In this document: piece after piece, positions 39,221 to 54,240 of the stretch
Numbering within the stretch: the first letter of the stretch is position 1
How the letters are laid out: every line of letters starts with the position of its first letter
Assembly: GCF_004216915.1 (NCBI RefSeq)
Contig: NZ_SGXD01000001.1
Coordinates: 124,001-188,000 of the forward strand
DNA: 64,000 bases
Direction: 5' to 3'
DNA from: Motilibacter rhizosphaerae
GTDB taxonomy: Bacteria > Actinomycetota > Actinomycetes > Motilibacterales > Motilibacteraceae
Program-made: the position numbers and the translations under genes
Notes under the pieces: generated by a model
What the model was told of the DNA's origin: nothing
The model's input: only the letters and a program-made list of their open reading frames with translations
The model's database searches: none

Positions 39221-39862
39221 TCAGCTCAGGCCGAGGGCGTGCCGGCGCACCCATGCGTGCATGGCGATCCCCGCCGCCACTCCGGCGTTGACCGACCTCG
39301 TCGAGCCGAACATCGCGATCGAGCAGACCAGGTCGCACGCCTCGTGCACCGCGGCCGACAGGCCCGGCCCCTCCTGGCCGAAGACCAGCACGCAGCGCCG
39401 TGGGAGCTCGGCCGTCTCGAGCGGCACCGACCCCGGCAGGTTGTCGATCCCCACCAGCGGCAGCCCCTCCGCGCGCGCCCACGCCACGAGGTCCTCGACC
39501 GTCGCGTGGTGGCGCAGGTGCTGGTAGCGGTCGGTGACCATCGCCCCGCGCCGGTTCCACCGCCGGTTGCCGACGATGTGCACCTCCGCGGCGAGGAACG
39601 CGTTCGCCGTGCGCACGACCGTCCCGATGTTGAGGTCGTGCTTCCAGTTCTCGATGGCCACGTGGAAGTCGTGCCGCCGCGCGTCCAGGTCCGCGACGAC
39701 CGCGTCCACGGTCCAGTACCGGTAGCGGTCGACGACGTTGCGGCGGTCGCCGTGGGCCAGCAACTCGGGGTCGAGCCGCGGGTCGTCCGGCCAGGGCAGC
39801 GGGTGCGGGCCGACACCCACCTCGTCGCCGCCGCTCTCCGCCTCGTCCGCGATGTCCCTCAC
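39221..39862 (-). CDS. TrmH/SpoU-family RNA 2'-O-methyltransferase
   Basis: 213 aa SPOUT methyltransferase. Motif 1 NWKHDLNIGTVVRTANAF, motif 2 LVFGQEGPGLS and motif 3 FGSTRSVNAGVAAGIAMHAW are intact, forming the knotted SAM site. It modifies a tRNA or rRNA ribose. I place the start at GTG 39862, with GGCAGG eight bases upstream; an open extension to 39946 crosses a copy of a GTGATCATGCA repeat arm and is less likely coding. Genes of this type are often near fba and DUF3151 in actinobacteria. Confidence 0.86.
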   Translation of the reverse strand: MRDIADEAESGGDEVGVGPHPLPWPDDPRLDPELLAHGDRRNVVDRYRYWTVDAVVADLDARRHDFHVAIENWKHDLNIGTVVRTANAFLAAEVHIVGNRRWNRRGAMVTDRYQHLRHHATVEDLVAWARAEGLPLVGIDNLPGSVPLETAELPRRCVLVFGQEGPGLSAAVHEACDLVCSIAMFGSTRSVNAGVAAGIAMHAWVRRHALGLS

Positions 39863-40027
39863 GCGCGCAGCCTGCCACCGCGGCGCCAGGACGTGCATGA
39901 TCACGAGGAGGAAGGGCGCATCGGACCCGCGTGATCCGACGCTCAAGCCTCCGCGGCGTTGCGCCGAATGGGTGTGTCAAGGGTCCGTACGACGCGTACG
40001 GGCCGGCCACTCGAGGAGGCGACCGCG

Positions 40028-41362
40028 ATGCGCGTGTCGGTGTTCGGTCTCGGCAAGCTCGGCGCGCCGCTGGCCGCGGTCTTCGCCGCTAGCGGCCACG
40101 ACGTCGTCGCCGTCGACGTCAGCCCGTCGGTCGTCGACCTCGTCAACGCCGGGACCGCGCCCGTCAGCGAGCCGGGCCTGCAGGACCTCATGGACGCCGG
40201 CCGTGTGCGGCTGCGCGCGACGCTCGACCCGGTCGAGGCCGTGCACGCGAGCGACGCGACCTTCGTCATCGTGCCCACGCCGAGCGCCCCCGAGGGCGGC
40301 TTCACCAACGCGTACCTCCTCGACGCGCTGCGCCGGATCGGCGCCGCCGTCGCGACGAAGTCCGGCTACCACGCGGTCAACGTCACGAGCACGGTCATGC
40401 CGGGGTCGTGCGACGGCGAGCTGCGCGCGGCCCTCGAGGAGGCCTCCGGCCGGACCGTGGGCGTCGACCTGGGCCTGACCTACAGCCCGGAGTTCATCGC
40501 GCTCGGCAGCGTCGTGCACGACATGCTCTACCCGGACGTGCTGCTGCTGGGCGAGTCCGACCCCCGGGCCGGCGACCTCGTCAGCGCGATCGCGACGAGC
40601 TCGGTCCGCAACGACCCCGCCCTGCGCCGCATGAGCCTCGTCAACGCCGAGCTCGTGAAGATCAGCGTCAACACCTACGTCACCACGAAGATCTCCTTCG
40701 CCAACATGCTCGGCGAGATCTGCGACCGCCTCCCCGGCGCCGACGCCGACGTGGTGACCGCCGCGATCGGCTGCGACAGCCGCATCGGGCGCAAGTACCT
40801 CTCCGCCGCGACGGGCTACGGCGGTCCGTGCTTTCCCCGTGACAACAGGGCCTTCGCGCTCCTCGCGTCGCAGTTGGGCGTCGAGGCGACCCTCGCCAAG
40901 GCGACCGACGTGGTGAACAAGCGGCAGACCGAGCGGCTCCACGAGCTCGTCGGCATGCTCGCCTCCCCCGGCGACGTCGTCGCCGTCCTCGGGCTGTCCT
41001 ACAAGCCCGGCACGTGGTTCTCCGAGGAGAGCGCAGGCCTGGACCTGCTGCGCACCTTGGTGTCCGCGGGCCACGAGGTCCTCGGCCACGACCCGCTCGC
41101 CCTCGACGGCCCGGTACCGCTCGTGGAGCCGGGCGGGACGCTCAGCAGCGATCTCGCGGACGTCCTCGCCCGCGCCGACGTCGTCGTCATCGCCACCGCC
41201 CACCCCGAGTACGCGACGCTCTCCCGGCTGCGCGCGCACACGGTCCTCGACTGCTGGGGAACCACCGACGCCGCAGCGCTTCCTGCGGACACCTCGTACG
41301 TCCGCCTGGGCCGCGCCGCGGCGACCCGCGCCGTGCGCCAGCCCGCCTCCGCGGCCGCCTGA
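40028..41362 (+). CDS. UDP-glucose/GDP-mannose-type nucleotide-sugar dehydrogenase
   Basis: 444 aa NAD-dependent dehydrogenase. N-terminal Rossmann VFGLGKLGAPLAAVFAASGH, IVPTPSAPEGGFTN, the dimer-helix lysine region VNAELVKISVNTYVTTKIS, catalytic Cys268 in GYGGPCFPRDNRAF, and the C-terminal UDP-binding domain with VLGLSYKPGT. It oxidises a sugar C6 to a uronate. ATG 40028 follows GAGGAGG. First gene of a four-gene rightward glycan operon; the next start is 17 bases on. Confidence 0.88.
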   Translation: MRVSVFGLGKLGAPLAAVFAASGHDVVAVDVSPSVVDLVNAGTAPVSEPGLQDLMDAGRVRLRATLDPVEAVHASDATFVIVPTPSAPEGGFTNAYLLDALRRIGAAVATKSGYHAVNVTSTVMPGSCDGELRAALEEASGRTVGVDLGLTYSPEFIALGSVVHDMLYPDVLLLGESDPRAGDLVSAIATSSVRNDPALRRMSLVNAELVKISVNTYVTTKISFANMLGEICDRLPGADADVVTAAIGCDSRIGRKYLSAATGYGGPCFPRDNRAFALLASQLGVEATLAKATDVVNKRQTERLHELVGMLASPGDVVAVLGLSYKPGTWFSEESAGLDLLRTLVSAGHEVLGHDPLALDGPVPLVEPGGTLSSDLADVLARADVVVIATAHPEYATLSRLRAHTVLDCWGTTDAAALPADTSYVRLGRAAATRAVRQPASAAA

Positions 41363-41379
41363 GCAGAGAGGCCAGACGC

Positions 41380-42444
41380 ATGCCCACTCCCGCTTTCCTC
41401 GGCAGCCTGCCGGGTCCCCGCTTCGAGGGTACGGACCCCGACCTCCCCGTCGTCGTCACGGGAGCCGGTGGCTTCATCGGCGGCTGGCTCGTGCGCGACC
41501 TGCTGCGGCAGGGCGTGAAGACCGTGCGCGCCGTCGACATCAAGCCCTTCGACGAGTGGCAGCAGCGCTTCGACGACGCCGAGAACCTCCAGCTCGACCT
41601 CAACAACCTCGTCGCGTGCCGGCGGGCGACCGAGGGCATGGCCGTCGTCTACAACCTCGCCGCCGACATGGGCGGCATGGGCTTCATCGAGACGCACAAG
41701 GCCGAGTGCATGCTCTCGGTGCTCATCAGCACGCACATGCTGGTTGCCGCGAAGGACGCCGGCGTGCAGCGGTTCTTCTACTCCTCCTCGGCCTGCGTCT
41801 ACAACGCCGACAAGCAGGAGGACGCGGACGTCACCGCGCTGGTCGAGGCCGACGCGTACCCCGCGATGCCGGAGGACGGCTACGGCTGGGAGAAGCTCTT
41901 CAGCGAGCGGATGTGCCGCCACTTCCGCGAGGACTACGGCCTCGAGACCCGAGTCGCGCGCTTCCACAACGTCTACGGCCCGCTCGGCACCTGGAAGGGC
42001 GGCCGCGAGAAGGCTCCCGCGGCCCTGAGCCGGAAGGTCGCGGAGGCCGTGCTCAACGCCGACCCGCGCATCGACATCTGGGGCGACGGCGAGCAGACGC
42101 GGTCATTCATGTTCATCAGCGACTGCGTCTACGGCATCCAGCGCATCATGTGGAGCGACGTCGTCGAGCCGCTGAACCTCGGCTCCGACGAGCTCGTCTC
42201 GATCAACCAGCTCGTCGCGCTGCTAGAGGACATGGCGTACGTCCGCCTGCGCCGCAGCCACGACCTCGGCGCGCCGAAGGGCGTGCGGGGCCGCAACAGC
42301 GACAACCGCCTGATCCGCCGGCTGCTCGGCTGGGAGCCGGGCACCTCGCTGCGCGAGGGCATGGCCGTGACGTACGCCTGGGTCCGCGAGCAGGTCGCCG
42401 CAGACCTCGCAGCTGAGGCCGCGCTCGCGGCCGTGGAGGGGTAG
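41380..42444 (+). CDS. GDP-mannose 3,5-epimerase-like NDP-sugar epimerase
   Basis: 354 aa extended SDR enzyme. NAD motif VTGAGGFIGGWLV, then the plant-type GME signatures: FFYSSSACVYN with Cys139, DGYGWEK with Tyr168 and Lys172, FHNVYGPLGTWKGGREKAPA with Lys206, WGDGEQTRSFMFI and VRGRNSDNRLI. The Cys-Tyr spacing (29) equals that of the plant enzyme that makes GDP-L-galactose and GDP-L-gulose. An L-hexose or related precursor is likely its product, feeding the following transferases. Confidence 0.82.
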   Translation: MPTPAFLGSLPGPRFEGTDPDLPVVVTGAGGFIGGWLVRDLLRQGVKTVRAVDIKPFDEWQQRFDDAENLQLDLNNLVACRRATEGMAVVYNLAADMGGMGFIETHKAECMLSVLISTHMLVAAKDAGVQRFFYSSSACVYNADKQEDADVTALVEADAYPAMPEDGYGWEKLFSERMCRHFREDYGLETRVARFHNVYGPLGTWKGGREKAPAALSRKVAEAVLNADPRIDIWGDGEQTRSFMFISDCVYGIQRIMWSDVVEPLNLGSDELVSINQLVALLEDMAYVRLRRSHDLGAPKGVRGRNSDNRLIRRLLGWEPGTSLREGMAVTYAWVREQVAADLAAEAALAAVEG

Positions 42445-42448
42445 ACCC

Positions 42449-44905
42449 GTGCTCTCGGTGATCGTGTACGGCCGGAACGACAGCTACGGCTACCGGCTGG
42501 AGAAGCGCGCCGCACTGGCGCTGAACTCGTGGGGCGAGATGCTCGACCCCGCCCGCGGGGACGAGATCGTCTTCTGCGACTACAACACCCCGGACGAGCT
42601 GCCGACGTTCCCGGAGACGATCGCCGACACGCTCACCCCGGTGACGCGCGAGCTGCTGCAGGTCGTCCGCGTACGCCCCCGGCACCACGCCCGCTGGGCC
42701 GAGCGCACTCACCTCGTCGCGCTCGAGCCGCAGGGCCGCAATGCCGCGCTCCGCCGCACGAACCCGGCCAACCGCTGGGTGCTCTCCACCAACACCGACA
42801 TGGTCTTCCTCGTCGAGGGCGGCCGGCTGGCCGACCGGCTCGAGACGCTCGAGGACGGCTTCTACCAGCTGCCGCGGTTCGAGCTGCCCGAGTCGCTGTG
42901 GTCGGAGTGGGAGCGCAGCGACCCGCAGGGCTTCCACGCCGAGCTCGCCCGGCTCGCGGGGCCGCTGGGGCTCGACCGCGTGCTGCTCTCCCCCGACTGC
43001 GTCGTGGACGGGCCGGGTGACTTCCAGCTCGCGCTGCGCGAGGACCTGTTCGCCATCGCCGGCTTCGACGAGGCCATGCTCAACGGCTGGCACGTCGACG
43101 GGAACCTCCAGCTGCGCCTGGACCTCCACCGCCGCGAGAAGACCCGGCTGCTCCCGCTGCCCGTCCGCGGCTACCACTGCGACCACACCCTCGCGCCGAC
43201 CGCCATGCACGCCGGCGCCGCGGTGCACAACAGCTGGCAGCAGTTCCTCACCCGGGTGCAGACCGCCGACCTCCACGGCCAGCAGCCCCACTGGGGCCTG
43301 GGCGACGTCGAGCTCGAGCACTTCAGCCTGCGCAGCCGGGCCGGGCGCATCGCCCGCCTGACCGAGAGCGCCGCCCGCGCCGCGGTCTCCGTCGAGGGTG
43401 CCCGCCTGCCGAGCGACCAGGTCGCCGAGTACGGCACTGAGCAGTGGGTCGACGCCCCGGTCGAGCTGCTGGTCGCGCACGCCACCAGCCTGTTCGCGGC
43501 CTTCGAGGCCGGCGCGAGCATCGCCTGGTCGGGCTCCAGCCCCGACGTGCTGCTCCCCCTGCGCGCGGTGCTGGCCGGGGAGGGGCGCACGGGCACGTGG
43601 TACCTCGACAGCGACTGCGACCTCGTCACCCGCTGCCCGGAGCTGCTCGACGCCCCTGACGTCGAGCTCTGCGACATCACCTCGCTCGAGCAGCTGCGCC
43701 CCGACGTCGTGGTCGTCGAGTCCGTGCTCCCCGCGACCGTCGCCCCCGGCGGCGAGCGGGAGCGCGAGGACCGCATGGCGCAGGCCCAGCGAACGCTCCG
43801 CCACACGGCCCTCACCGGGGAGACCTGCCCCGGCTGGGACCCGATGGTCATCGCCGTCGGCGCCGGTGGCACCGCGCTCCAGGAGCTCGTGGACCGCCTG
43901 TTCGTCACCGCCAGCGCGCCGATGGGCACGGGGATCCGGCTCGGGCGCGTACGCCGTGCCGCTCCCACGGGCACGTCGTTCAAGGACCTCGCCCTGCGCG
44001 TCACCCGTGCGGTCGGTGCTGCGGCGCCGCTGCGGGCGGGGGAGTTCGCCCACCTCGTCGACGCGACCCGCGACGCGGCGCAGGGGCGGCCGAGCGACCT
44101 GCAGGCCAGCGAGCTGCCGTGGGTGCGCGCCCTGTGCGCCGACGCGGCCGCCCCGGACTACCTCGGCGTCACCCGTGCGTCGCTCGACGCCCTGCTGCGC
44201 CAGCTGCCCGAGCTGGCCGCCGAGCCGGTCGCCGAGCCGGGGGCGCTGCGCCAGCCGGACGGCGGGGACCTGCGCGACGAGCTGTGGCGCAGCACCGCCC
44301 GCGCGGTCATCGACGAGGTGCCGCCGAGCATCGTCGGCCGCGAGAACGAGTGGCTCCTGCCGACGCTGGTGCAGGAGCTGCGCGCGAGCGCCGGCCGCCG
44401 GCCGCGCGTCGCCCTGGTCAGCAACAGCCCCGAGATCCTCGCGGCGTACCTCGGCCCGTGGTGCGAGCAGCTCGTCGTCGTGGGCGCCGAGCCCGAGCCG
44501 CGCAGCAGCCTGCAGCTGCCCGGGCGCCTGGTGCTCGACTCCCGCCGCCTCGCGACCTCGCTCGACGACGCCGAGTGGGACGCGTGCGTCGTCGACCTCG
44601 CCGCCGTGCGCGACGTCTCGCTGCTCGGGGCGCTGGCCCGCGAGCTGCGGGTGACGCGGCTGCTGCTGGGCTACCAGCTCGACCCCGCGGTCGTGCTGCC
44701 GATGGCCGTGCAGCCGAGCGGCGCGCTCGCGCCGCTGCGGACGCAGGCCCCTGCTCCCGCCCCCGCTCCGCTCCGGGCCGTGCCTGCGCAGAGCGCGCCG
44801 ACCGTGCCTGCCGCTCCCGCTCCTGTTGCGGCCGCGGCGGCGCCGCTCACCGTGCCCCTCGCCCTGGCCGCCCCGACCACCGGAGCCCGCTATGCCCGCG
44901 TGTGA
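42449..44905 (+). CDS. Large glycosyltransferase (GT-A N-terminal domain) with unknown C-terminal region
   Basis: 818 aa. Residues 1-300 resemble a GT-A transferase: LSVIVYGRNDSYGYRLEKR, a DxD-like NTDM in RWVLSTNTDMVFL near residue 115, and a base-region NGWHVDGNLQLRLDLHRREK near 210. Residues 300-730 include Rossmann-like stretches (VALVSNSPEILAAYLGPWCE) but no family I recognise. The last 80 residues are a Pro/Ala-rich disordered tail. GTG 42449 follows the epimerase by 4 bases, and its end overlaps the next gene by 14 bases. Probably cytosolic; no membrane segment. Confidence 0.7.
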   Translation: MLSVIVYGRNDSYGYRLEKRAALALNSWGEMLDPARGDEIVFCDYNTPDELPTFPETIADTLTPVTRELLQVVRVRPRHHARWAERTHLVALEPQGRNAALRRTNPANRWVLSTNTDMVFLVEGGRLADRLETLEDGFYQLPRFELPESLWSEWERSDPQGFHAELARLAGPLGLDRVLLSPDCVVDGPGDFQLALREDLFAIAGFDEAMLNGWHVDGNLQLRLDLHRREKTRLLPLPVRGYHCDHTLAPTAMHAGAAVHNSWQQFLTRVQTADLHGQQPHWGLGDVELEHFSLRSRAGRIARLTESAARAAVSVEGARLPSDQVAEYGTEQWVDAPVELLVAHATSLFAAFEAGASIAWSGSSPDVLLPLRAVLAGEGRTGTWYLDSDCDLVTRCPELLDAPDVELCDITSLEQLRPDVVVVESVLPATVAPGGEREREDRMAQAQRTLRHTALTGETCPGWDPMVIAVGAGGTALQELVDRLFVTASAPMGTGIRLGRVRRAAPTGTSFKDLALRVTRAVGAAAPLRAGEFAHLVDATRDAAQGRPSDLQASELPWVRALCADAAAPDYLGVTRASLDALLRQLPELAAEPVAEPGALRQPDGGDLRDELWRSTARAVIDEVPPSIVGRENEWLLPTLVQELRASAGRRPRVALVSNSPEILAAYLGPWCEQLVVVGAEPEPRSSLQLPGRLVLDSRRLATSLDDAEWDACVVDLAAVRDVSLLGALARELRVTRLLLGYQLDPAVVLPMAVQPSGALAPLRTQAPAPAPAPLRAVPAQSAPTVPAAPAPVAAAAAPLTVPLALAAPTTGARYARV

Positions 44906-46151
44906 CCTCGAGCCGCTGCGCAACCCCGGAGCCGCCTTCGCCGCGCCGCCCTTCGGCGCCCCCGAGTCCGGTCCCTGGGTCGTGACGGCCACCTGGCCGT
45001 ACGGCGAGGTGCCCTCGACGTGGGCGCTGCGGGCGCGGCTGGCCGACGAGGTATGGGCGCCCAGCACCAGCGCGGCCGCCGGCTGGACCGACGCGGGGCT
45101 GCCGCGGGCACGCGTCCGCGTGCTGCCCGCCGGGGTGGACACGTCGCTCGTCACCCCCGAGGGCCGCTCCGACCGCACGGTGCGGGGGCTCGGCTCGTTC
45201 GTGGTCCTCGCCGCGGGCGGCACCAGCCTGGCCGCAGGTCCCGACCTCGCGCTCCGCGCGGTGCGCGAGGCCTTCCCCGGCCGCAGCGACGTCGCCCTGG
45301 TCCTGCTCGGCGGCAGCGCGGAGGAGCACGACGCGCTCACCCCGGACGTCCAGGACGAGCTGTCGCGCGCCGCTTCGGGCGGCGGCCCCCGCGTCGTGGT
45401 CCTGCGCACCCCGGCCGACGAGGCCGGCCTCGCCCGCCTGCTCCGGTCCTGCGACGTCGTGCTGCTGCCGACCCGCGCCTCGGCGAGCGGCACCCGCGTG
45501 GCCCAGGCCATGGCGGCGGGCGTCCCCGTCGTCGGCGCCGGCGCCGTGGCGGCCGAGCTGCTCGGCGCCGCGTCACCCGCGGCCGCCGCGCGCACGGAGG
45601 CCGTCCGGCTCTCGGGCGTCCAGCCGCTGCACCGGCCGTTCACCTGGGGCGAGCCGGACGTCAGCGAGCTGGTGGCGGCGCTGCGCGAGGCGGAGGGCAC
45701 CGGCTCCGAGCAGCTGCGGACGTGGCTGCGCGCCCGCGCCGTCCGCGACCTCTCGAGCGAGCGCGCGGACCGCCTGCGCGCCGCGCGGCTCTCCGCCCTC
45801 GAGCAGCGCACTCCCGTGCGCGAGGGCGGGGTCCCGGTCGCCCCCCACGGCGTCGCCGGGTCGCTGGGCCAGCAGGTCCTCGTCACCGTGACCGACCGCG
45901 CCCAGGCCGAGGCCGTCGCGGCGGGCTTCGCCGCGGCGTACGTGCCGACGGACTGCGTCGAGCTGCTGCTCCTGCCGGCGACCGGCCCGCTCGGCGAGGT
46001 GCCGGGCGCGCGGGCGCTGCCCGTCCTCCCGACCGACGTGCAGGCGGACCTCGCCGCGACGGTCGACGTGGTGGTCGGGGCCGGCCAGGCGCCGACCACC
46101 CCCGAGGAGTGGTACGCGCTGGTGCCGCCGCTGCCGCGGCTGCGCGGGTAG
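44892..46151 (+). CDS. Group 1 (GT4-like) glycosyltransferase
   Basis: 419 aa GT-B protein. The N-half has ATWPYGEVPSTWALRARLAD and LPAGVDTSLVTPEGRS, where the VDT/VD-x-F-type segment begins the donor site. The C-half has FVVLAAGGTSLAAGPDLALRA, RTPADEAGLARLLRSCDVVLLPTR and GTRVAQAMAAGVPVVG, the nucleotide-sugar-binding region. The N-terminal acceptor domain looks short for the family and the last 110 residues are atypical. ATG 44892 lies inside the end of the previous gene. It likely acts on the same glycan. Confidence 0.75.
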   Translation: MPACDLEPLRNPGAAFAAPPFGAPESGPWVVTATWPYGEVPSTWALRARLADEVWAPSTSAAAGWTDAGLPRARVRVLPAGVDTSLVTPEGRSDRTVRGLGSFVVLAAGGTSLAAGPDLALRAVREAFPGRSDVALVLLGGSAEEHDALTPDVQDELSRAASGGGPRVVVLRTPADEAGLARLLRSCDVVLLPTRASASGTRVAQAMAAGVPVVGAGAVAAELLGAASPAAAARTEAVRLSGVQPLHRPFTWGEPDVSELVAALREAEGTGSEQLRTWLRARAVRDLSSERADRLRAARLSALEQRTPVREGGVPVAPHGVAGSLGQQVLVTVTDRAQAEAVAAGFAAAYVPTDCVELLLLPATGPLGEVPGARALPVLPTDVQADLAATVDVVVGAGQAPTTPEEWYALVPPLPRLRG

Positions 46152-46180
46152 CCTCCCGGGCTGCGCCGTAGGGTCGGAGC

Positions 46181-46942
46181 ATGGCGCGCATCCTCGTCAC
46201 CGGCTCGGCGCAGGGCATCGGGCGGCAGACGGCCGCGGACCTCGTCGGCCTGGGGCACGAGGTCGTCGTGCACGGGCGGGACGACGCACGGGGCCGCGCA
46301 GCGCTCGACGCCGTGCCCGGCGCGGCCGGCGTGGTCGTGGGCGACCTCTCCTCGCTGGCCTCGACGCGCGCGCTCGCGCAGAGCGCCGGCGCGTACGACG
46401 TCGTCGTGCACAACGCCGGGGTCGGAGGCGACGGGAAGCGCGAGACGACGGTCGACGGGCTGTCGCGGATCTTCCAGGTCAACGTGCTGGCGCCGTACGT
46501 CCTCACCGCCCTGCTGCCGGCACCGCAGCGCGCGATCTACCTCTCGAGCGGGCTGCAGGCCAGCGGCCGGCTGGACCTCGACGACCCGCAGTGGGAGCGG
46601 CGGCGCTGGGACGGGATGCAGGCGTACTGCGACTCGAAGCTCGCCGACGTCCTGCTGGCCCTGTGGGTCGCCCGCCGGTCGCCCGGCACGGTGAGCAACG
46701 CGGTCGACCCGGGCTGGATCAGGACGGCGATGGGCGGGCGCGGCGCCCCGGGCAGCCCCGAGGAGGGCGCGGACACCCAGGTCTGGCTCGCGACGAGCGA
46801 CGAGCCCGCCGCGGTCGCCAGCGGGCGCTACCTGAAGGGCCGGCGCGAGCAGCAGCCGAACCCCGCCGCGCGCGACGAGCGGCTGCAGGACAGGCTGGTC
46901 GAGCTCTGCGCGCGGCTCAGCGGCGTCGCCCCGGCCGCGTAG
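46181..46942 (+). CDS. Short-chain dehydrogenase/reductase
   Basis: 253 aa classical SDR. Cofactor motif VTGSAQGIGRQTA, structural NAG in HNAGVG, active-site Ser in YLSSGLQ and YxxxK as YCDSK, then NAVDPGWIRTAMGG. The Asp/Glu-poor position after strand 2 (VVHGRDDARG) favours NADP. The substrate is unknown. ATG 46181 starts 29 bases after the transferase, and the DedA gene begins 3 bases after its stop. Confidence 0.85.
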   Translation: MARILVTGSAQGIGRQTAADLVGLGHEVVVHGRDDARGRAALDAVPGAAGVVVGDLSSLASTRALAQSAGAYDVVVHNAGVGGDGKRETTVDGLSRIFQVNVLAPYVLTALLPAPQRAIYLSSGLQASGRLDLDDPQWERRRWDGMQAYCDSKLADVLLALWVARRSPGTVSNAVDPGWIRTAMGGRGAPGSPEEGADTQVWLATSDEPAAVASGRYLKGRREQQPNPAARDERLQDRLVELCARLSGVAPAA

Positions 46943-46945
46943 CCC

Positions 46946-47542
46946 GTGGACCTGCTGCCCGACCTGGGCTCGGTCGGGACCCTCGGCGCGTACGCGCTGG
47001 TCGGCGCACTCGTGTTCGTCGAGTCGGGGCTGCTGCTGGGCTTCCTGCTCCCGGGCGACACCGTGCTGTTCGGGGCCGGCCTGCTCGCCGGGGACCCGGG
47101 CTCCGGCGTCGAGCTGGGGGTGCTGCTGCCGCTCGTGCTGGTCACCGCGGTGGCCGGCGAGGCGCTCGGCTACGCGATCGGGCGCAGGCTCGGGCGACCC
47201 TGGCTCGAGCGGCGCATGCAGTCGGGCCGGCTCGACCCGCGCCACCTCGCCCGCGCCGAGGCCTTCACGCAGCGCTTCGGCTGGTGGGCGGTGGTGGCGG
47301 CGCGCTGGGTGCCGTGGATGCGGACGTTCGTGCCGCTGCTGGCCGGCGTCTCGGGGATGGGGCAGCGCAGCTTCACGACCGCCAACGTCGTCGGGGCGGC
47401 GAGCTGGGGCGGGGTGCTCGTGCTCGCCGGGTACGCCGCGGCGGGCGACCCGCGGCTGCGCACCGCCGCCCTCGTCGTGGGGGCGGTCGCGGTGGTCGGC
47501 TCGCTGTGCGCGGGTGCGGTCCTGCACAGACGGCGCCGGTAG
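46946..47542 (+). CDS. DedA-family membrane protein (first of two)
   Basis: 198 aa inner-membrane protein with about five hydrophobic helices. The DedA signatures are FVESGLLLGFLLPGDTVLF (conserved Glu and PGD) and ARWVPWMRTFVPLLAGVSGM (conserved Arg, Pro and Arg). DedA proteins flip phospholipids or the lipid carrier undecaprenyl phosphate. GTG 46946 is the start. A paralogue follows 9 bases later; carrier recycling would fit the adjacent glycan operon. Confidence 0.88.
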   Translation: MDLLPDLGSVGTLGAYALVGALVFVESGLLLGFLLPGDTVLFGAGLLAGDPGSGVELGVLLPLVLVTAVAGEALGYAIGRRLGRPWLERRMQSGRLDPRHLARAEAFTQRFGWWAVVAARWVPWMRTFVPLLAGVSGMGQRSFTTANVVGAASWGGVLVLAGYAAAGDPRLRTAALVVGAVAVVGSLCAGAVLHRRRR

Positions 47543-47551
47543 CCTCGCTGC

Positions 47552-48226
47552 GTGCCCCTCGCGACAGCAGCTGCCGCCACCACGACCGCCCTCGGCCCCT
47601 CCTGGATGCACCCGACCGAGCTCGTCTCGACGTTCGGGGCGTACGCGCTCGTCGCCGTGCTCGTCATCGTCTTCGCCGAGTGCGGCCTGCTCGTCGGGTT
47701 CTTCCTGCCGGGCGACTCGCTGCTGTTCATGACCGGGCTGTTCATCGCCGACGGTTCGATCCGCACGCCGCTGTGGCTGGCGTGCGTCCTGGTCGCCGCG
47801 GCCGCGGTGCTCGGCAACGCCGTCGGGTACGCGATCGGCTGGCGGCTCGGTCCCTCGGTGTTCGACAAGCCGGAGTCGCGGCTGTTCCGCCCGAAGCACG
47901 TGGCGCGCACGCACGAGTTCTTCGAGAAGTACGGCACCCGCGCCATCTTCCTCGCGCGCTTCGTGCCGATCGTGCGGACCTTCATCACCGTCATGGCGGG
48001 CGTGGGCCGGATGGACCGGCGCGCGTACTTCACCGCGTCGACCATCGGCGGCATCGTCTGGGGCGCCGGCGTCGTGCTGCTCGGCCACGCGCTGGGCGGC
48101 GTGGACGCGGTCAAGGACAACATCGAGCTCGCGCTCGTCGGGATCGTGCTGCTGAGCGTGATCCCCATCGGCCTCGAGTGGCTCCGGGCGCGGCGGGAGA
48201 GCGGGTCGGTCGGCTCGGCGGGGTGA
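47552..48226 (+). CDS. DedA-family membrane protein (second of two)
   Basis: 224 aa. It has the same signatures as its neighbour: FAECGLLVGFFLPGDSLLF and ARFVPIVRTFITVMAGVGRM, plus YFTASTIGGIVWGAGVVLLG. It is longer at the N-terminus and closer to typical DedA proteins than the upstream copy, so the pair probably arose by old duplication. GTG 47552 is the start. The gene ends just before the large repeat element. Confidence 0.9.
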   Translation: MPLATAAAATTTALGPSWMHPTELVSTFGAYALVAVLVIVFAECGLLVGFFLPGDSLLFMTGLFIADGSIRTPLWLACVLVAAAAVLGNAVGYAIGWRLGPSVFDKPESRLFRPKHVARTHEFFEKYGTRAIFLARFVPIVRTFITVMAGVGRMDRRAYFTASTIGGIVWGAGVVLLGHALGGVDAVKDNIELALVGIVLLSVIPIGLEWLRARRESGSVGSAG

Positions 48227-48596: not shown

Positions 48597-48857
48597 CTAC
48601 CAGGTCGTCGGGTCGTCCCGCAGGTCCAGGTGCTGGCCGGTGAGCCCCGCGGCCCGGCGGCGGATGGCGTCGAGCGCCTGGCGGGCGGCGTCCTCGCTGG
48701 CGTAGCGGCCCAGGCCCAGCACGGTGTTGGCCGGGCCGGCGACGACCTCGGCACGCACGCCCCAGGGCGCGTCGCCGCCGACCTGCTCGAGGTAGACGCT
48801 GACGCACAGGTCGAGGTTGACCAGGTTGCCGCGGGCGGTCGTGACCCAGGTGGACAT
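48597..48857 (-). CDS. Small conserved-looking protein, function unknown
   Basis: 86 aa. ATG 48857 follows GGAGGAAG with good spacing. The N-terminal half (TWVTTARGNLVNLDLCVSVYLEQVG) reads as beta strands; the C-terminal half has one helix (SEDAARQALDAIRRRAAGL). It looks like short actinobacterial proteins whose beta hairpin contains LVNLD. There is no signal or membrane segment. It diverges from the ROK regulator. Confidence 0.65.
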   Translation of the reverse strand: MSTWVTTARGNLVNLDLCVSVYLEQVGGDAPWGVRAEVVAGPANTVLGLGRYASEDAARQALDAIRRRAAGLTGQHLDLRDDPTTW

Positions 48858-49011
48858 TCCGCTTCCTCCTCCGAGGCTCCCGGGCGCGCACCCGGAGCCG
48901 CGCGCGACGCTACCGCCTCCCCCACCAGCGCGTACGCACGGGCGCCCTCCGCGCGCGCTCCGCTGTGGTTGGATGAGGCGGAACGGCGGGGGCGCGACGA
49001 GGGCGGGCAGC

Positions 49012-50253
49012 ATGCGGGGGCGGGAGTCCAGCACGGTCCGCGACCTGCGCCGCAGCAACCGGGCTCGGGTCCTCTGGGAGCTCTACCACCAGGGCACGCT
49101 GAGCCGGCAGGAGATCGCCGTGGCCGCCGGCGTCAGCGCCGGCACGGTCAGCAACGTCGTCACCGAGCTCGTGGACCAGGGCGTCGTCGTCGAGGCCGGC
49201 CAGGAGGACTCCGACGGCGGACGCCCGCGGGGCCTGCTCCAGGTGGCCTCCGGCTACGGCTACGTCATCGGCGTCGACATCGGTGAGACCTCGATCGGCG
49301 TGGAGCTGTTCGACCTCTCCATGCGGGTCCTGGCGGCGCGCACGGTCACCCCCTCCGAGCGCCGCCTCGACGTCGACGAGGTCGTCCGCGTCGTCCTCGA
49401 CGGCATGGCCGCGGTGCTCGCGGAGTCCGGTGTCGCGCAGGAGCGGGTGCTCGGGGTCGGGGTCGGCGTACCCGGCCTCGTCGAGCACGGCGGGGACGGC
49501 GTCGTGCACGGGCCCACCGTCGGGTGGGACGCCGTCCCCCTGGGGCGCCTGCTCGCAGCCGGTACGGACCTCCCCCTGCTCGTGGAGAACGGCGCCAAGA
49601 CCCTGGGCCAGGCCGAGATGTGGTTCGGCGCGGGCCGCGGGGCGGACAACGCCGTCATCCTCCTGCTGGGCACGGGTGTCGGGACGAGCATCGTGCTCGG
49701 TGGCGCGCTGTACCGCGGTGCGGGGAGCAGCGCCGGCGAGTGGGGGCACACGACCGTCGTCACCGGGGGTCGGCTGTGCCGGTGCGGGGCGACCGGCTGC
49801 CTCGAGGCGTACGTCGGGGCGGGCGCGCTGCTGCGGCGCTACGAGGAGCTCACCGGCACCTCCGGCAGCGGCAGCCTCGAGGAGCGGACGGCGGACCTGC
49901 TCGCCAGCGACGACGCGGCGGCCCGCCAGGTGCGCGCCGAGACCGCGGAGTACCTCGGCGCGGGCGTCGGCAGCCTGGTCAACCTGTTCAACCCGGAGCG
50001 CATCGTCGTCGGCGGGTGGGTCGGGCGGCTGCTCGGCGAGGCGTTCCTGCCGGTGCTGCGCGAGCAGGTCGCGTCGCACGCGCTGGCGCTGCCGTTCAGC
50101 CAGACCTCGCTCGTCCTGGCCGAGCTCGGCCGCGACGCCATCGCCCTGGGCGCGGCGACGCAGCCCGTGGAGCGGCTGCTGACCTCGGGCGCGATGCCGC
50201 AGCAGCCCCCGCGCTCGGCCCGCCGCCCGAGCGACGCGGTTGGACGGCGCTAG
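49012..50253 (+). CDS. ROK-family transcriptional regulator (NagC/XylR type)
   Basis: 413 aa. The N-terminal winged HTH spans about residues 12-65 (LSRQEIAVAAGVSAGTVSNV), followed by a ROK sugar-kinase-like domain. That domain has the ATP motif GVDIGETSIGVELFD, VENGAKTLGQAEMWFG, LLGTGVGTSIVLGG, AGEWGHT and the zinc site CRCGATGCLEAYVG. It probably senses a sugar and controls the glucoamylase 89 bases downstream. ATG 49012 is the start, with GGGCGGGCAG upstream. Confidence 0.88.
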   Translation: MRGRESSTVRDLRRSNRARVLWELYHQGTLSRQEIAVAAGVSAGTVSNVVTELVDQGVVVEAGQEDSDGGRPRGLLQVASGYGYVIGVDIGETSIGVELFDLSMRVLAARTVTPSERRLDVDEVVRVVLDGMAAVLAESGVAQERVLGVGVGVPGLVEHGGDGVVHGPTVGWDAVPLGRLLAAGTDLPLLVENGAKTLGQAEMWFGAGRGADNAVILLLGTGVGTSIVLGGALYRGAGSSAGEWGHTTVVTGGRLCRCGATGCLEAYVGAGALLRRYEELTGTSGSGSLEERTADLLASDDAAARQVRAETAEYLGAGVGSLVNLFNPERIVVGGWVGRLLGEAFLPVLREQVASHALALPFSQTSLVLAELGRDAIALGAATQPVERLLTSGAMPQQPPRSARRPSDAVGRR

Positions 50254-50342
50254 AGCGGGTAGCGCGCACGTAGCCCCGGCCCCTGGCCGCCAGCCGGCCC
50301 GGCGACGGCCCGGGCGGAGCCGCTGCCAACGGGGAGGCGCGC

Positions 50343-52571
50343 GTGTCCAGCCGTCCATCCAGTCGCCCAGCCGGCGACGCGGTCCTGCGCCGCGCTCTCG
50401 CCGCCGGTGTCCCGCTCGCCCTGGGCGCCGCGGTCGTCGGGCCCAGCGCCCCCGCAGTCGCGGCGTCGAGCGGAGCCGCGCCCGGCGGCCCCGGCACCCA
50501 CGCGACGTGGGAGCCGGCCGACAAGCACGGCTTCGGCACCGCGATCGGCACCGGCACCCACAGCCCGGTGTGGTTCACCCTGCGCCAGGGCGGCCTGTCC
50601 GAGGTCTTCTACCCCGACCTCGGCACGCCCGCGCTCCGCTCGCTCCACTTCGTGGTGACCGACGCGCGCACCGGCACCGCCAGCACCGCCGTGCCGACGA
50701 CGACGCGGCAGGCCGACAGCCGCAGCCTGCGCTACACCCAGGTCTCGACCTCGGCCGGCCACTGGCGCCTGACGACGCAGTACGTGACGGACGCCGCCCG
50801 CGCCTCGGTCGTCGTCTCGCTGCGCCTCGACTCCCTGGACCGGCGGACGTACTCGGTCTTCGCGGTGGCCGATCCCGCCCTGGGCGACGATGGGGACGAC
50901 GACAGCGCGCGCGTCGGCGGCGGGAGCCTGACGGCGTACGACTCCTCGTCGGCGCTCGCGCTCGAGGCGAGCGGCGGCTTCTCCGCGCGCACCGCCGGCT
51001 ACGCCGGGACCCGCAGCGACGGAGCGCTCGACCTCGCCGACGGACGGCTCGACTCGGCGTACGCGACGGCGGGGAAGGGCGACGTCGCCGTCACCGGCCG
51101 GCTGCACGTCGACGGGCGCAGCCGGCGTACGGCGACGCTCGCGCTCGGCTTCGGCGCGACCCGCAGTGCCGCCCTCGCGGTGGCCGGACGCTCGCTGGCC
51201 CAGGGCTTCGCCGCGGCGGCCACGGCGTACGACCGGGGCTGGCACGCGTACCTCTCGGGCCTGTCCGGCGTCCCGGCTGCGGCGAGCAGCCTGCGCAACG
51301 AGTACCTCACCTCGGTGATGGTGCTCGCGGCCAGCGAGGACAAGGAGCACCCCGGCGCGTTCGTGGCCTCGCCGACCGCGCCGTGGGCGTGGGGGCTCGG
51401 CATCAAGGGGCTGTCGCAGCCGTCCGAGGCGTACCACCTCGTCTGGTCGCGCGACCTCTACCAGATCGCGACCGCGCTGCTCGCGGCCGGCGACAAGGCA
51501 GCGGCCGGTCGGGCACTGGACTTCCTGCTGTCCACGCAGCAGAAGAGCGACGGGTCGTTCCCGCAGAACTCCCGCGTGGACGGCACTCCGGAGTGGGGCG
51601 GCCTGCAGCTCGACGAGATCGGGCTCCCGCTCGTGCTGGCCTGGCAGCTCGGCCGCACCGACGCGCGCACGATGGCGAAGGTCAAGGCGGCGGCGGACTT
51701 CCTGCTGTCCTACAAGGACAAGGACACCGGCCTCGCCGCTCCCTGGTCGCCGCAGGAGCGCTGGGAGAACCAGGCCGGGTACTCGCCCGCGACGATCGCC
51801 GCGGAGGTCGCGGGGCTGGTCTGCGCGGCGGACCTCGCCCGTCGCGCGGGCGACACCGCCGACGCGGACCGCTGGATGGCGACGGCGAAGTCCTGGCAGG
51901 CCGCGCTCGCGGGCTGGACCGTGACGACGACCGGCCCGTACTCCTCGCAGGCGTACTTCCTGCGGCTCACCAAGGACGGCAAGCCCGACGCCGGCACGAC
52001 CTACAACGTCGGTGACGGTGGCCCCACGCTCGACCAGCGCGCGGTCGTCGACCCGAGCTTCCTCGACGTGGTCCGCCTCGGCCTCGTCAGCGCGAGCGAC
52101 CCCGTCGTGCAGAACACCGTCAAGGTCGTCGACGACCGGCTCGCGGTCTCGACGCCGTACGGCCTGCTGTGGCACCGCTTCACCGGGGACGGCTACGGCG
52201 AGACGCGGACCGGCGGCCCGTGGACGATCACGAAGCCGCGGACGGGCACGACGTCCGGCCGCGCGTGGCCGATCTTCGCCGGCGAGCGCGGCGAGTACGA
52301 GCTGCTGGCGGGCGACCCCAAGCGCGCGGCGCAGCGGCTGCGGACCATGGCCGACACCGCGAACGACGGTGGCCTCATCGCCGAGCAGGTCTGGGACGGG
52401 CGCGCCCCCTCGGGCACGGGCGGTCGGCGGACCGGTGAGGGCACGACGTCAGCGACGCCGCTCGTCTGGTCGCACGCGCAGTTCGTCCGGCTCGCCGTCT
52501 CCCTGCAGGCCGGTACGCCGGTGGAGCGACCGTCCGTCGTGTCGTGCACCTTCCTGCAGCAGGGCTGCTGA
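50343..52571 (+). CDS. Secreted GH15 glucoamylase/glucodextranase-like
   Basis: 742 aa with a signal peptide ending near AVAASS (residue 42). Residues 50-310 form the N-terminal beta-sandwich of bacterial glucoamylases (GIGTGTHSPVWFTLRQGGLSE without the first residue, EVFYPDLGTPALRSLHFV). Residues 330-730 form an (alpha/alpha)6 barrel with HLVWSRDLYQIATALLAAGD, SFPQNSRVDG, SPQERWENQAGYSPAT (general acid among Glu472/475) and GLIAEQVWDG (likely base Glu681). It releases glucose from starch-like glucans outside the cell. GTG 50343 follows GGGGAGG. Confidence 0.9.
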   Translation: MSSRPSSRPAGDAVLRRALAAGVPLALGAAVVGPSAPAVAASSGAAPGGPGTHATWEPADKHGFGTAIGTGTHSPVWFTLRQGGLSEVFYPDLGTPALRSLHFVVTDARTGTASTAVPTTTRQADSRSLRYTQVSTSAGHWRLTTQYVTDAARASVVVSLRLDSLDRRTYSVFAVADPALGDDGDDDSARVGGGSLTAYDSSSALALEASGGFSARTAGYAGTRSDGALDLADGRLDSAYATAGKGDVAVTGRLHVDGRSRRTATLALGFGATRSAALAVAGRSLAQGFAAAATAYDRGWHAYLSGLSGVPAAASSLRNEYLTSVMVLAASEDKEHPGAFVASPTAPWAWGLGIKGLSQPSEAYHLVWSRDLYQIATALLAAGDKAAAGRALDFLLSTQQKSDGSFPQNSRVDGTPEWGGLQLDEIGLPLVLAWQLGRTDARTMAKVKAAADFLLSYKDKDTGLAAPWSPQERWENQAGYSPATIAAEVAGLVCAADLARRAGDTADADRWMATAKSWQAALAGWTVTTTGPYSSQAYFLRLTKDGKPDAGTTYNVGDGGPTLDQRAVVDPSFLDVVRLGLVSASDPVVQNTVKVVDDRLAVSTPYGLLWHRFTGDGYGETRTGGPWTITKPRTGTTSGRAWPIFAGERGEYELLAGDPKRAAQRLRTMADTANDGGLIAEQVWDGRAPSGTGGRRTGEGTTSATPLVWSHAQFVRLAVSLQAGTPVERPSVVSCTFLQQGC

Positions 52572-52628
52572 GGCACGCGTCACTCCCCGCACGGGAAGAA
52601 GCCCCGGGCGGCTCGGGTTGCCGCCCGC

Positions 52629-53693
52629 ATGAGCCGTCTGTTCTCCCCGTTGACCCTGCGCGGCACGACCTTCCGCAACCGCGCGTGGGTCGCGCCGATG
52701 TGCCAGTACACCTCCGTCGACGGGTTCCCGACCGACTGGCACCTCGTGCACCTGGGGTCGCTGGCGCGCGGCGGGGCCGGCCTCGTCATCGCCGAGGCCA
52801 CCGCGGTGACGCCCGAGGGCCGGATCACGCCGGCGGACGCGGGCATCTGGAGCGACGAGCAGGCAGCGGCGTACGCGCCCATCGTCGACTTCGTGCACAG
52901 CCAGGGCGCGGCCGCGGGCATCCAGCTCGCGCACGCCGGGCGCAAGGCGTCGACCAAGCGGCCGTGGGACGGCGATGGCTACGTCGAGCCCGCCGACGGC
53001 GGGTGGCAGACGGTGGGAGCCTCCCCGCTGGGCTTCGCCGACTGGCCCGCCCCGCGCGAGCTGACGGTCCCGGAGATCGGCGACGTCGTCCGCGCGTTCG
53101 CTGACGCTGCGGTGCGCGCTGATGCGGCCGGCTACGACGTCGTCGAGCTGCACGCGGCGCACGGCTACCTGCTGCACCAGTTCCTCTCGCCGCTGACCAA
53201 CCAGCGCACCGACGCGTACGGCGGCGACTTCGCGGGGCGCACCCGGCTCACGGTCGAGGTCGTGGACGCGGTGCGCGCGGTGTGGCCGGAGCACAAGCCG
53301 CTGTTCGTCCGCTTCTCGGCGACGGACTGGGTCGAGGGCGGCTGGACCGTCGAGGAGACCGGCGAGCTCACGCGCATCCTCAAGGCCCACGGGGTGGACC
53401 TCGTCGACGTGTCGAGCGGCGGTCTGGTGCCCGACGCGAAGATCGAGGTCGGCCCGGGCTACCAGGTCCCGTTCGCCCGCGCGGTCCGCGAGGCCAGCGG
53501 CGTCCCGACCGCTGCGGTCGGCCTCATCAACGACCCGAAGCAGGCCGAGGAGGTGCTGGCCGACGGCTCCGCGGACGCCGTGCTGCTCGCCCGCGCGCTG
53601 CTCCGCGAGCCGCACTGGCCGCTGCGCGCGGCCTTCGAGCTCGGCGACAGCGTGGACTGGCCGGTGCAGTACCAGCGCGCCGCGTGGCGCTAG
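52629..53693 (+). CDS. NADH:flavin oxidoreductase, old yellow enzyme (YqjM/NamA-like)
   Basis: 354 aa FMN-binding TIM barrel. The opening FSPLTLRGTTFRNRAWVAPM with Cys25 in PMCQY is typical of the YqjM/thermophilic-like class, where Cys tunes the flavin. IQLAHAGRKAS gives the His pair region, and ELHAAHGYLLHQFLSPLTN and RTDAYGGDFAGRTRL are hallmarks. It reduces activated alkenes or electrophiles with NADPH. ATG 52629 is the start. The gene converges with pyrE. Confidence 0.92.
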   Translation: MSRLFSPLTLRGTTFRNRAWVAPMCQYTSVDGFPTDWHLVHLGSLARGGAGLVIAEATAVTPEGRITPADAGIWSDEQAAAYAPIVDFVHSQGAAAGIQLAHAGRKASTKRPWDGDGYVEPADGGWQTVGASPLGFADWPAPRELTVPEIGDVVRAFADAAVRADAAGYDVVELHAAHGYLLHQFLSPLTNQRTDAYGGDFAGRTRLTVEVVDAVRAVWPEHKPLFVRFSATDWVEGGWTVEETGELTRILKAHGVDLVDVSSGGLVPDAKIEVGPGYQVPFARAVREASGVPTAAVGLINDPKQAEEVLADGSADAVLLARALLREPHWPLRAAFELGDSVDWPVQYQRAAWR

Positions 53694-53706
53694 GGACCGG
53701 CAGGTC

Positions 53707-54240
53707 TCAGAGGCCGAGGTCGGACAGCTCGTACGCCGCGAGGTAGGGCAGGCCGGCCTCGGTCACCTTCGGGCGCGCGCCGCGCTCGACGATGACAGCG
53801 ACGCCCACGACCTCGGCGCCCGCCTCGCGCAGCGCCTCGACCGCCGTGAGGACCGAGCCGCCGGTCGTCGAGGTGTCCTCCACCGCGAGCACGCGCCGGC
53901 CGGCGACGTCGGGCCCCTCGATGCGCCGCTGCAGCCCGTGCTGCTTCTCGGCCTTGCGCACGACGAAGGCGTCCAGCGTGCGCCCCTGCTGGCCGGCCGC
54001 GTGGAGCATCGCGGTCGCGACCGGGTCGGCGCCGAGCGTCAGCCCGCCGACCGCGTCGAACTCCAGGTCCTGCGTCAGGTCCAGCATCACGCGACCGACC
54101 AGGGGCGCGGCCTGCGCGTCCAGGGTGACCCGGCGCAGGTCGACGTAGTAGTCGGCCTCCTTGCCGCTGCTGAGGACGACCTTGCCGTGCACCACGGCCT
54201 TGTCGAGGATCTGCTGGCGGAGTTCGTCGCGGTCGGTCAC
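53707..54240 (-). CDS. pyrE: Orotate phosphoribosyltransferase
   Basis: 177 aa, standard length. It converts orotate and PRPP to OMP in pyrimidine synthesis. SSGKEADYYVDLRRVTLDA opens the domain, GLTLGADPVATAML contacts the base, VVRKAEKQHG is the flexible loop and VLAVEDTSTTGGSVLTAVEA is the PRPP-binding motif. GTG 54240 is the start; longer open frames upstream run antisense to nothing recognisable and are rejected. Confidence 0.95.
   Translation of the reverse strand: MTDRDELRQQILDKAVVHGKVVLSSGKEADYYVDLRRVTLDAQAAPLVGRVMLDLTQDLEFDAVGGLTLGADPVATAMLHAAGQQGRTLDAFVVRKAEKQHGLQRRIEGPDVAGRRVLAVEDTSTTGGSVLTAVEALREAGAEVVGVAVIVERGARPKVTEAGLPYLAAYELSDLGL

Follow-up and report, generated by a model that had tools for sequence, protein, structure and literature searches.

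Introduction

The GDP-mannose 3,5-epimerases (GM35E) are distinguished from GDP-fucose synthase and GalE by a cysteine acid, a lysine base, an arginine that acidifies the cysteine, and the S-Y-K triad; in GDP-fucose synthase, a histidine and a lysine take the place of the Cys/Lys pair of GM35E (PMC8787198). A thermostable bacterial enzyme, MfGM35E from Methylacidiphilum fumariolicum, has been characterised (PMC6678494). Bacterial GM35E enzymes are known, but the uses of the L-sugars that they make are mostly guesswork. To our knowledge, there is no characterised bacterial route to an activated L-hexuronate (GDP-L-galacturonate or GDP-L-guluronate), and a literature search for a route to activated L-galacturonate or L-guluronate found none. 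Here, we describe an operon centred on a GM35E in the high-GC actinobacterium Motilibacter rhizosphaerae; the operon probably serves to add an L-sugar, or the corresponding acid, to a glycan. Positions refer to the window, the stretch of 64,000 nucleotides that was analysed (contig NZ_SGXD01000001.1, 124,001 to 188,000).

Operon Layout and Insertion Site

Four open reading frames lie on the forward strand at 40028–46151 with almost no spacing, forming a tight operon: a nucleotide-sugar 6-dehydrogenase (DH; 40028–41362), the GM35E (41380–42444), an 818-residue protein denoted GTx (42449–44905) and a short GT4-type protein (44892–46151). The gap is 17 bp between the DH and epimerase genes and 4 bp between the epimerase and GTx genes, while the GTx and GT4 genes overlap by 14 bp. 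The original prediction had placed an operon with an epimerase and a nucleotide-sugar dehydrogenase here, and the reading frames are as it stated. Third-position GC in the operon genes is 96–98%, like that of the neighbouring genes or slightly lower at most. Scans for tRNAs, sigma-70, terminators and Rfam families gave no matches.

The operon is contained in an inserted segment of about 7 kb (39947–46945, ends approximate) between a SpoU methylase gene (39221–39946) and a DedA-type gene that starts at 46946. In a genome of the same genus, about 100 bp separate the SpoU gene from the DedA gene, and their order is also kept in two other genera of the same family. No homologue of any of the four operon genes was found in the compared SpoU–DedA stretches of these three genomes, and GM35E (at E 1e-60) and GTx (at E 1e-8) were absent from the same-genus genome and from three genomes of the same family. 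The insertion also includes, 29 bp downstream of the GT4 gene, a forward-strand gene for an SDR-family oxidoreductase (46181–46942; PRK06196/PRK05854-like, below cut-offs), whose best homologue in the same-genus genome sits elsewhere in that genome. Acquisition of the operon by horizontal transfer is the simplest reading of this arrangement, and its loss in several relatives could also account for it. No integrase or repeat was noticed by eye at the ends of the insertion. The GM35E tree did not resolve the position of the window epimerase within the bacterial clade, and a donor lineage was not identified.

Directly after the insertion are two tandem genes that, by eye, look like DedA/VTT genes (46946–48226). 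The segment at 48853–53708, which carries ROK-type regulator/kinase and glucoamylase-like genes, is unmatched in the syntenic region of the same-genus genome, where its flanks are about 100 bp apart, pointing to another insertion or deletion near the operon.

The GDP-Mannose 3,5-Epimerase

The epimerase matched the Arabidopsis GDP-mannose 3,5-epimerase (GME; PDB 2c59) with a phmmer E value of 4e-95, compared to about 1e-27 or weaker for other SDR families in the PDB, and is 47% identical to it over 318 columns. The eight catalytic and binding residues tested, S143, C145, Y174, K178, N203, K217, R243 and R306 in Arabidopsis, correspond to S137, C139, Y168, K172, N197, K211, R241 and R305 in the window epimerase, and are identical in all of the 102 aligned rows. 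The GM35E-defining Cys acid (C139), Lys base (K211) and Cys-acidifying Arg (R305) are all present, as are the S137, Y168, K172 triad and the NAD-binding GxxGxxG/A motif, in the form GAGGFIG. The original prediction had correctly named Cys139, Tyr168, Lys172 and the VRGRNSDN motif, but it took Lys206, the lysine of TWKGG, where the catalytic base is in fact Lys211 of GGREK. It had also described the enzyme as “plant-type”, which is misleading: among 80 bacterial relatives fetched, identity to the window epimerase was 63–71%, and GM35E is a broad, widespread bacterial family with a characterised member (PMC6678494) and no restriction to plants.

The predicted L-hexose product is likely and well supported. 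The sequence comparisons speak strongly for activity on GDP-mannose, and this central enzyme of the operon almost certainly turns GDP-mannose into the rare L-galactose and L-gulose sugars. The host genome encodes a mannose-1-phosphate guanylyltransferase (571 bits; cut-off 440) for the supply of GDP-mannose, and a GDP-mannose 4,6-dehydratase gene is also found elsewhere in the genome. Relatives of the window epimerase with 44–46% identity were seen in cyanophage records (H48–H62), one of which is annotated as a GDP-mannose 3',5'-epimerase.

The Nucleotide-Sugar Dehydrogenase

The DH is a genuine nucleotide-sugar dehydrogenase: it has the three-domain architecture PF03721/PF00984/PF03720 and scored 297 bits against TIGR03026 (cut-off 190), but fell far under all equivalog cut-offs. 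Its best solved relatives are UDP-glucose dehydrogenases (UGD) and GDP-mannose dehydrogenases (GMD), and the catalytic residues E155, K211, N215, C268 and D272 are kept. Three marks, each invariant or almost so, set the subfamily apart: position 159 has Leu in place of Glu, position 271 has Arg in place of Lys, and position 333 has Glu in place of Arg. L159 and E333 replace the Glu of PEFLxEG and the Arg of KPxTDDxRES in the solved UGD/GMD matches, and agreed in 39 of 40 and 42 of 42 subfamily rows, respectively, these rows including overlapping copies of the same genomes. None of the three marks occurs in the UGD/GMD sequences seen here. By sequence, the DH is a superfamily member assigned to neither UGD nor GMD and distinct from the housekeeping-type UDP-glucose dehydrogenase, belonging to a motif-defined, uncharacterised UGD/GMD-like subfamily with its catalytic residues intact. 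The changes at 159, 271 and 333 may shift its substrate choice; its nucleotide preference cannot be read from the sequence. The same genome contains a separate UGD-type gene with 33% identity to the DH, so the DH is specialised. In human UGDH, Arg260 hydrogen-bonds the glucose (PMC3184952); loss of its counterpart in the DH was considered and rejected, as counting back from the catalytic Cys shows that this residue, R252, is kept.

The GTx and GT4 Proteins

GTx had no match in Pfam, NCBIfam or the PDB. Its N-terminal ≈300 residues may form a divergent GT-A-like domain: a profile of this part aligned (E = 1e-4, probability 56) to a GT2 profile over 179 columns that take in the NTD and GFDE motifs, while the controls for this comparison, GM35E and DH, stayed below 1. 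The C-terminal part matched no family and is left unassigned. The N-terminal part is conserved in relatives, whereas the C-terminus is poorly conserved and has an Ala/Pro-rich tail. With moderate confidence, GTx can be regarded as a putative GT-A glycosyltransferase. AlphaFold models of the whole protein alone and of the N-terminal part with a verrucomicrobial relative (locus L075) had pLDDT values of 38 and 34, and were unusable. No relatives of GTx were found in a search of viral contigs. One GTx relative sits in a cluster with genes that, by eye, are GDP-mannose 4,6-dehydratase-, GDP-fucose synthase- and rmlA/C/D-like. On Azospirillum plasmids, genes annotated as hypothetical encode full-length GTx relatives (L183:23788–29203 and L185:12001–14625), the C-terminal part of which looks methyltransferase-like by eye; that such genes carry only this annotation exposes a gap in Pfam.

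The GT4 protein matched PF13692 (Glyco_trans_1_4) in its C-terminal donor-binding domain with 38.9 bits (cut-off 27). In the N-domain, Glyco_transf_4 matched only at profile positions 125–169 of 170, below the cut-off, and roughly 120 residues that a GT-B N-domain normally has are missing. This protein is consequently classed as GT4-like only. Of the two transferases that had been predicted, one has an incomplete N-domain and the other is a putative GT-A protein by profile comparison.

Recurrence of the Gene Set

The DH gene is directly beside a GM35E gene in an alphaproteobacterium (L045), in a member of the Chthoniobacterales (L022) and on an Azospirillum plasmid (L183), where DH, GM35E and GTx all fall within 18 kb. 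At eight loci, almost all of them rhodospirillalean and so not fully independent, DH adjoins GTx or lies within about 6 kb of it, and GTx is near GM35E in a member of the Verrucomicrobiota (L075). Neighbouring gene calls at the high-GC loci L175, L176, L022 and L075 are incomplete. The DH subfamily was found at E 1e-70 in 16 of 49 searched genomes with GM35E, a sample weighted to Reyranella-like bacteria. Among 396 genomes of the same phylum as Motilibacter, 22 had GM35E and four had DH, and only this genome had both: DH was missing from 21 of the 22 GM35E genomes, and GM35E went undetected in three of the four DH genomes. The three DH genomes with no detected epimerase speak against an obligate link between DH and GM35E; what recurs, in part or whole, is a module of DH, GM35E and GTx rather than a fixed pair. 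Elsewhere, relatives of these genes sit in polysaccharide or glycosylation clusters.

In one actinobacterial genome in which GM35E was not detected, the DH subfamily adjoins a different SDR gene (L174:8714–11089; dTDP-glucose dehydratase/GalE-like, below cut-offs). From this arrangement, DH may partner other epimerases.

Proposed Pathway and Alternatives

Taking the evidence as a whole, we lean towards a horizontally acquired cassette for glycan decoration with an L-hexose and/or a uronate. From host GDP-D-mannose, GM35E would form GDP-L-galactose, and GDP-L-gulose (and GDP-D-altrose) would arise beside it as side products; the characterised enzymes likewise make both GDP-L-galactose and GDP-L-gulose. 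Acting after GM35E, or separately, DH would oxidise C6 of a nucleotide-hexose to give an activated hexuronate. Its substrate is most likely a GDP-hexose. This could be GDP-mannose, though the pairing suggests the product of the epimerase, from which a GDP-L-hexuronate would result. The uronate of an L-hexose, also part of the original prediction, is possible, but the DH subfamily is uncharacterised and occurs without the epimerase as well.

The pairing could instead reflect two independent sugars, with DH making an ordinary uronate (UDP-glucuronate or GDP-mannuronate), GM35E separately making GDP-L-galactose, and the two donors grouped for one glycan. We give this reading appreciable weight while stopping short of calling it probable. 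The solved UDP-glucose and GDP-mannose dehydrogenases that are closest to DH, its standard catalytic residues and its occurrence without GM35E all fit such an arrangement, but L159 and E333, invariant or almost so across the subfamily, do not occur in the UGD/GMD sequences seen here, the genome possesses a UGD-type gene besides the DH gene, and direct DH–GM35E pairing recurs in distant bacteria.

In the decoration pathway that we favour, GTx and the GT4 protein would attach the L-hexose, the uronate or both to an acceptor whose synthesis is encoded elsewhere in the genome; this acceptor is most likely a glycan that is secreted or at the surface. The company of the genes, here and in relatives, backs the predicted glycan role, but the surface location is presumptive, with no exporter, polymerase or ligase among the operon genes. 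The product might alternatively be a small secreted, antibiotic-like glycoside, comparable to those of the bleomycin and A201A pathways, in which GM35E-type enzymes occur. For actinobacteria, GM35E-type genes in antibiotic pathways have indeed been described or proposed (PMC6678494), but no polyketide, peptide-synthetase or nucleoside-antibiotic genes were among those called beside the operon and, given that relatives of the gene set accompany polysaccharide or glycosylation genes, we regard this as improbable. Still less likely is that the operon is a remnant in decay, its GT4 broken and its GTx drifting, since the incomplete GT4 N-domain and poorly conserved, Ala/Pro-rich GTx C-terminus are countered by open frames, tight spacing, third-position GC like that of the neighbours and fully intact GM35E and DH catalytic residues.

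More speculatively, the DH subfamily might be dedicated to GM35E products, giving GDP-L-galacturonate or GDP-L-guluronate, with GTx representing a new GT-A family that uses the product and the module having spread between phyla; we put this forward only tentatively. If DH does accept the epimerase product, an activated L-hexuronate would be reached by a new route. As recurring partners, the separate DH subfamily and the GT-A-like family, so far unclassified, offer testable handles on the nucleotide sugar that is made and the enzyme that uses it.

Comparison with Known Systems

The window epimerase resembles Arabidopsis GME (2c59) and MfGM35E in fold family and in the catalytic and binding residues tested, but differs in its setting: its operon partners include GTx and a DH of a distinct subfamily, and there is no ascorbate context. 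The DH shares its domain order and the catalytic Glu, Lys, Asn, Cys and Asp with UGD/GMD (3vtf, 1mfz), and is set apart from them by Leu159 for Glu, Arg271 for Lys and Glu333 for Arg. In the glycan cluster on the Azospirillum brasilense plasmid NZ_CP059454.1, DH (60%) is directly followed by GM35E (66%), with members of the GTx family within 18 kb. Unlike the Motilibacter operon, that cluster is much larger, and includes methyltransferases, radical SAM proteins and a carbamoyltransferase.
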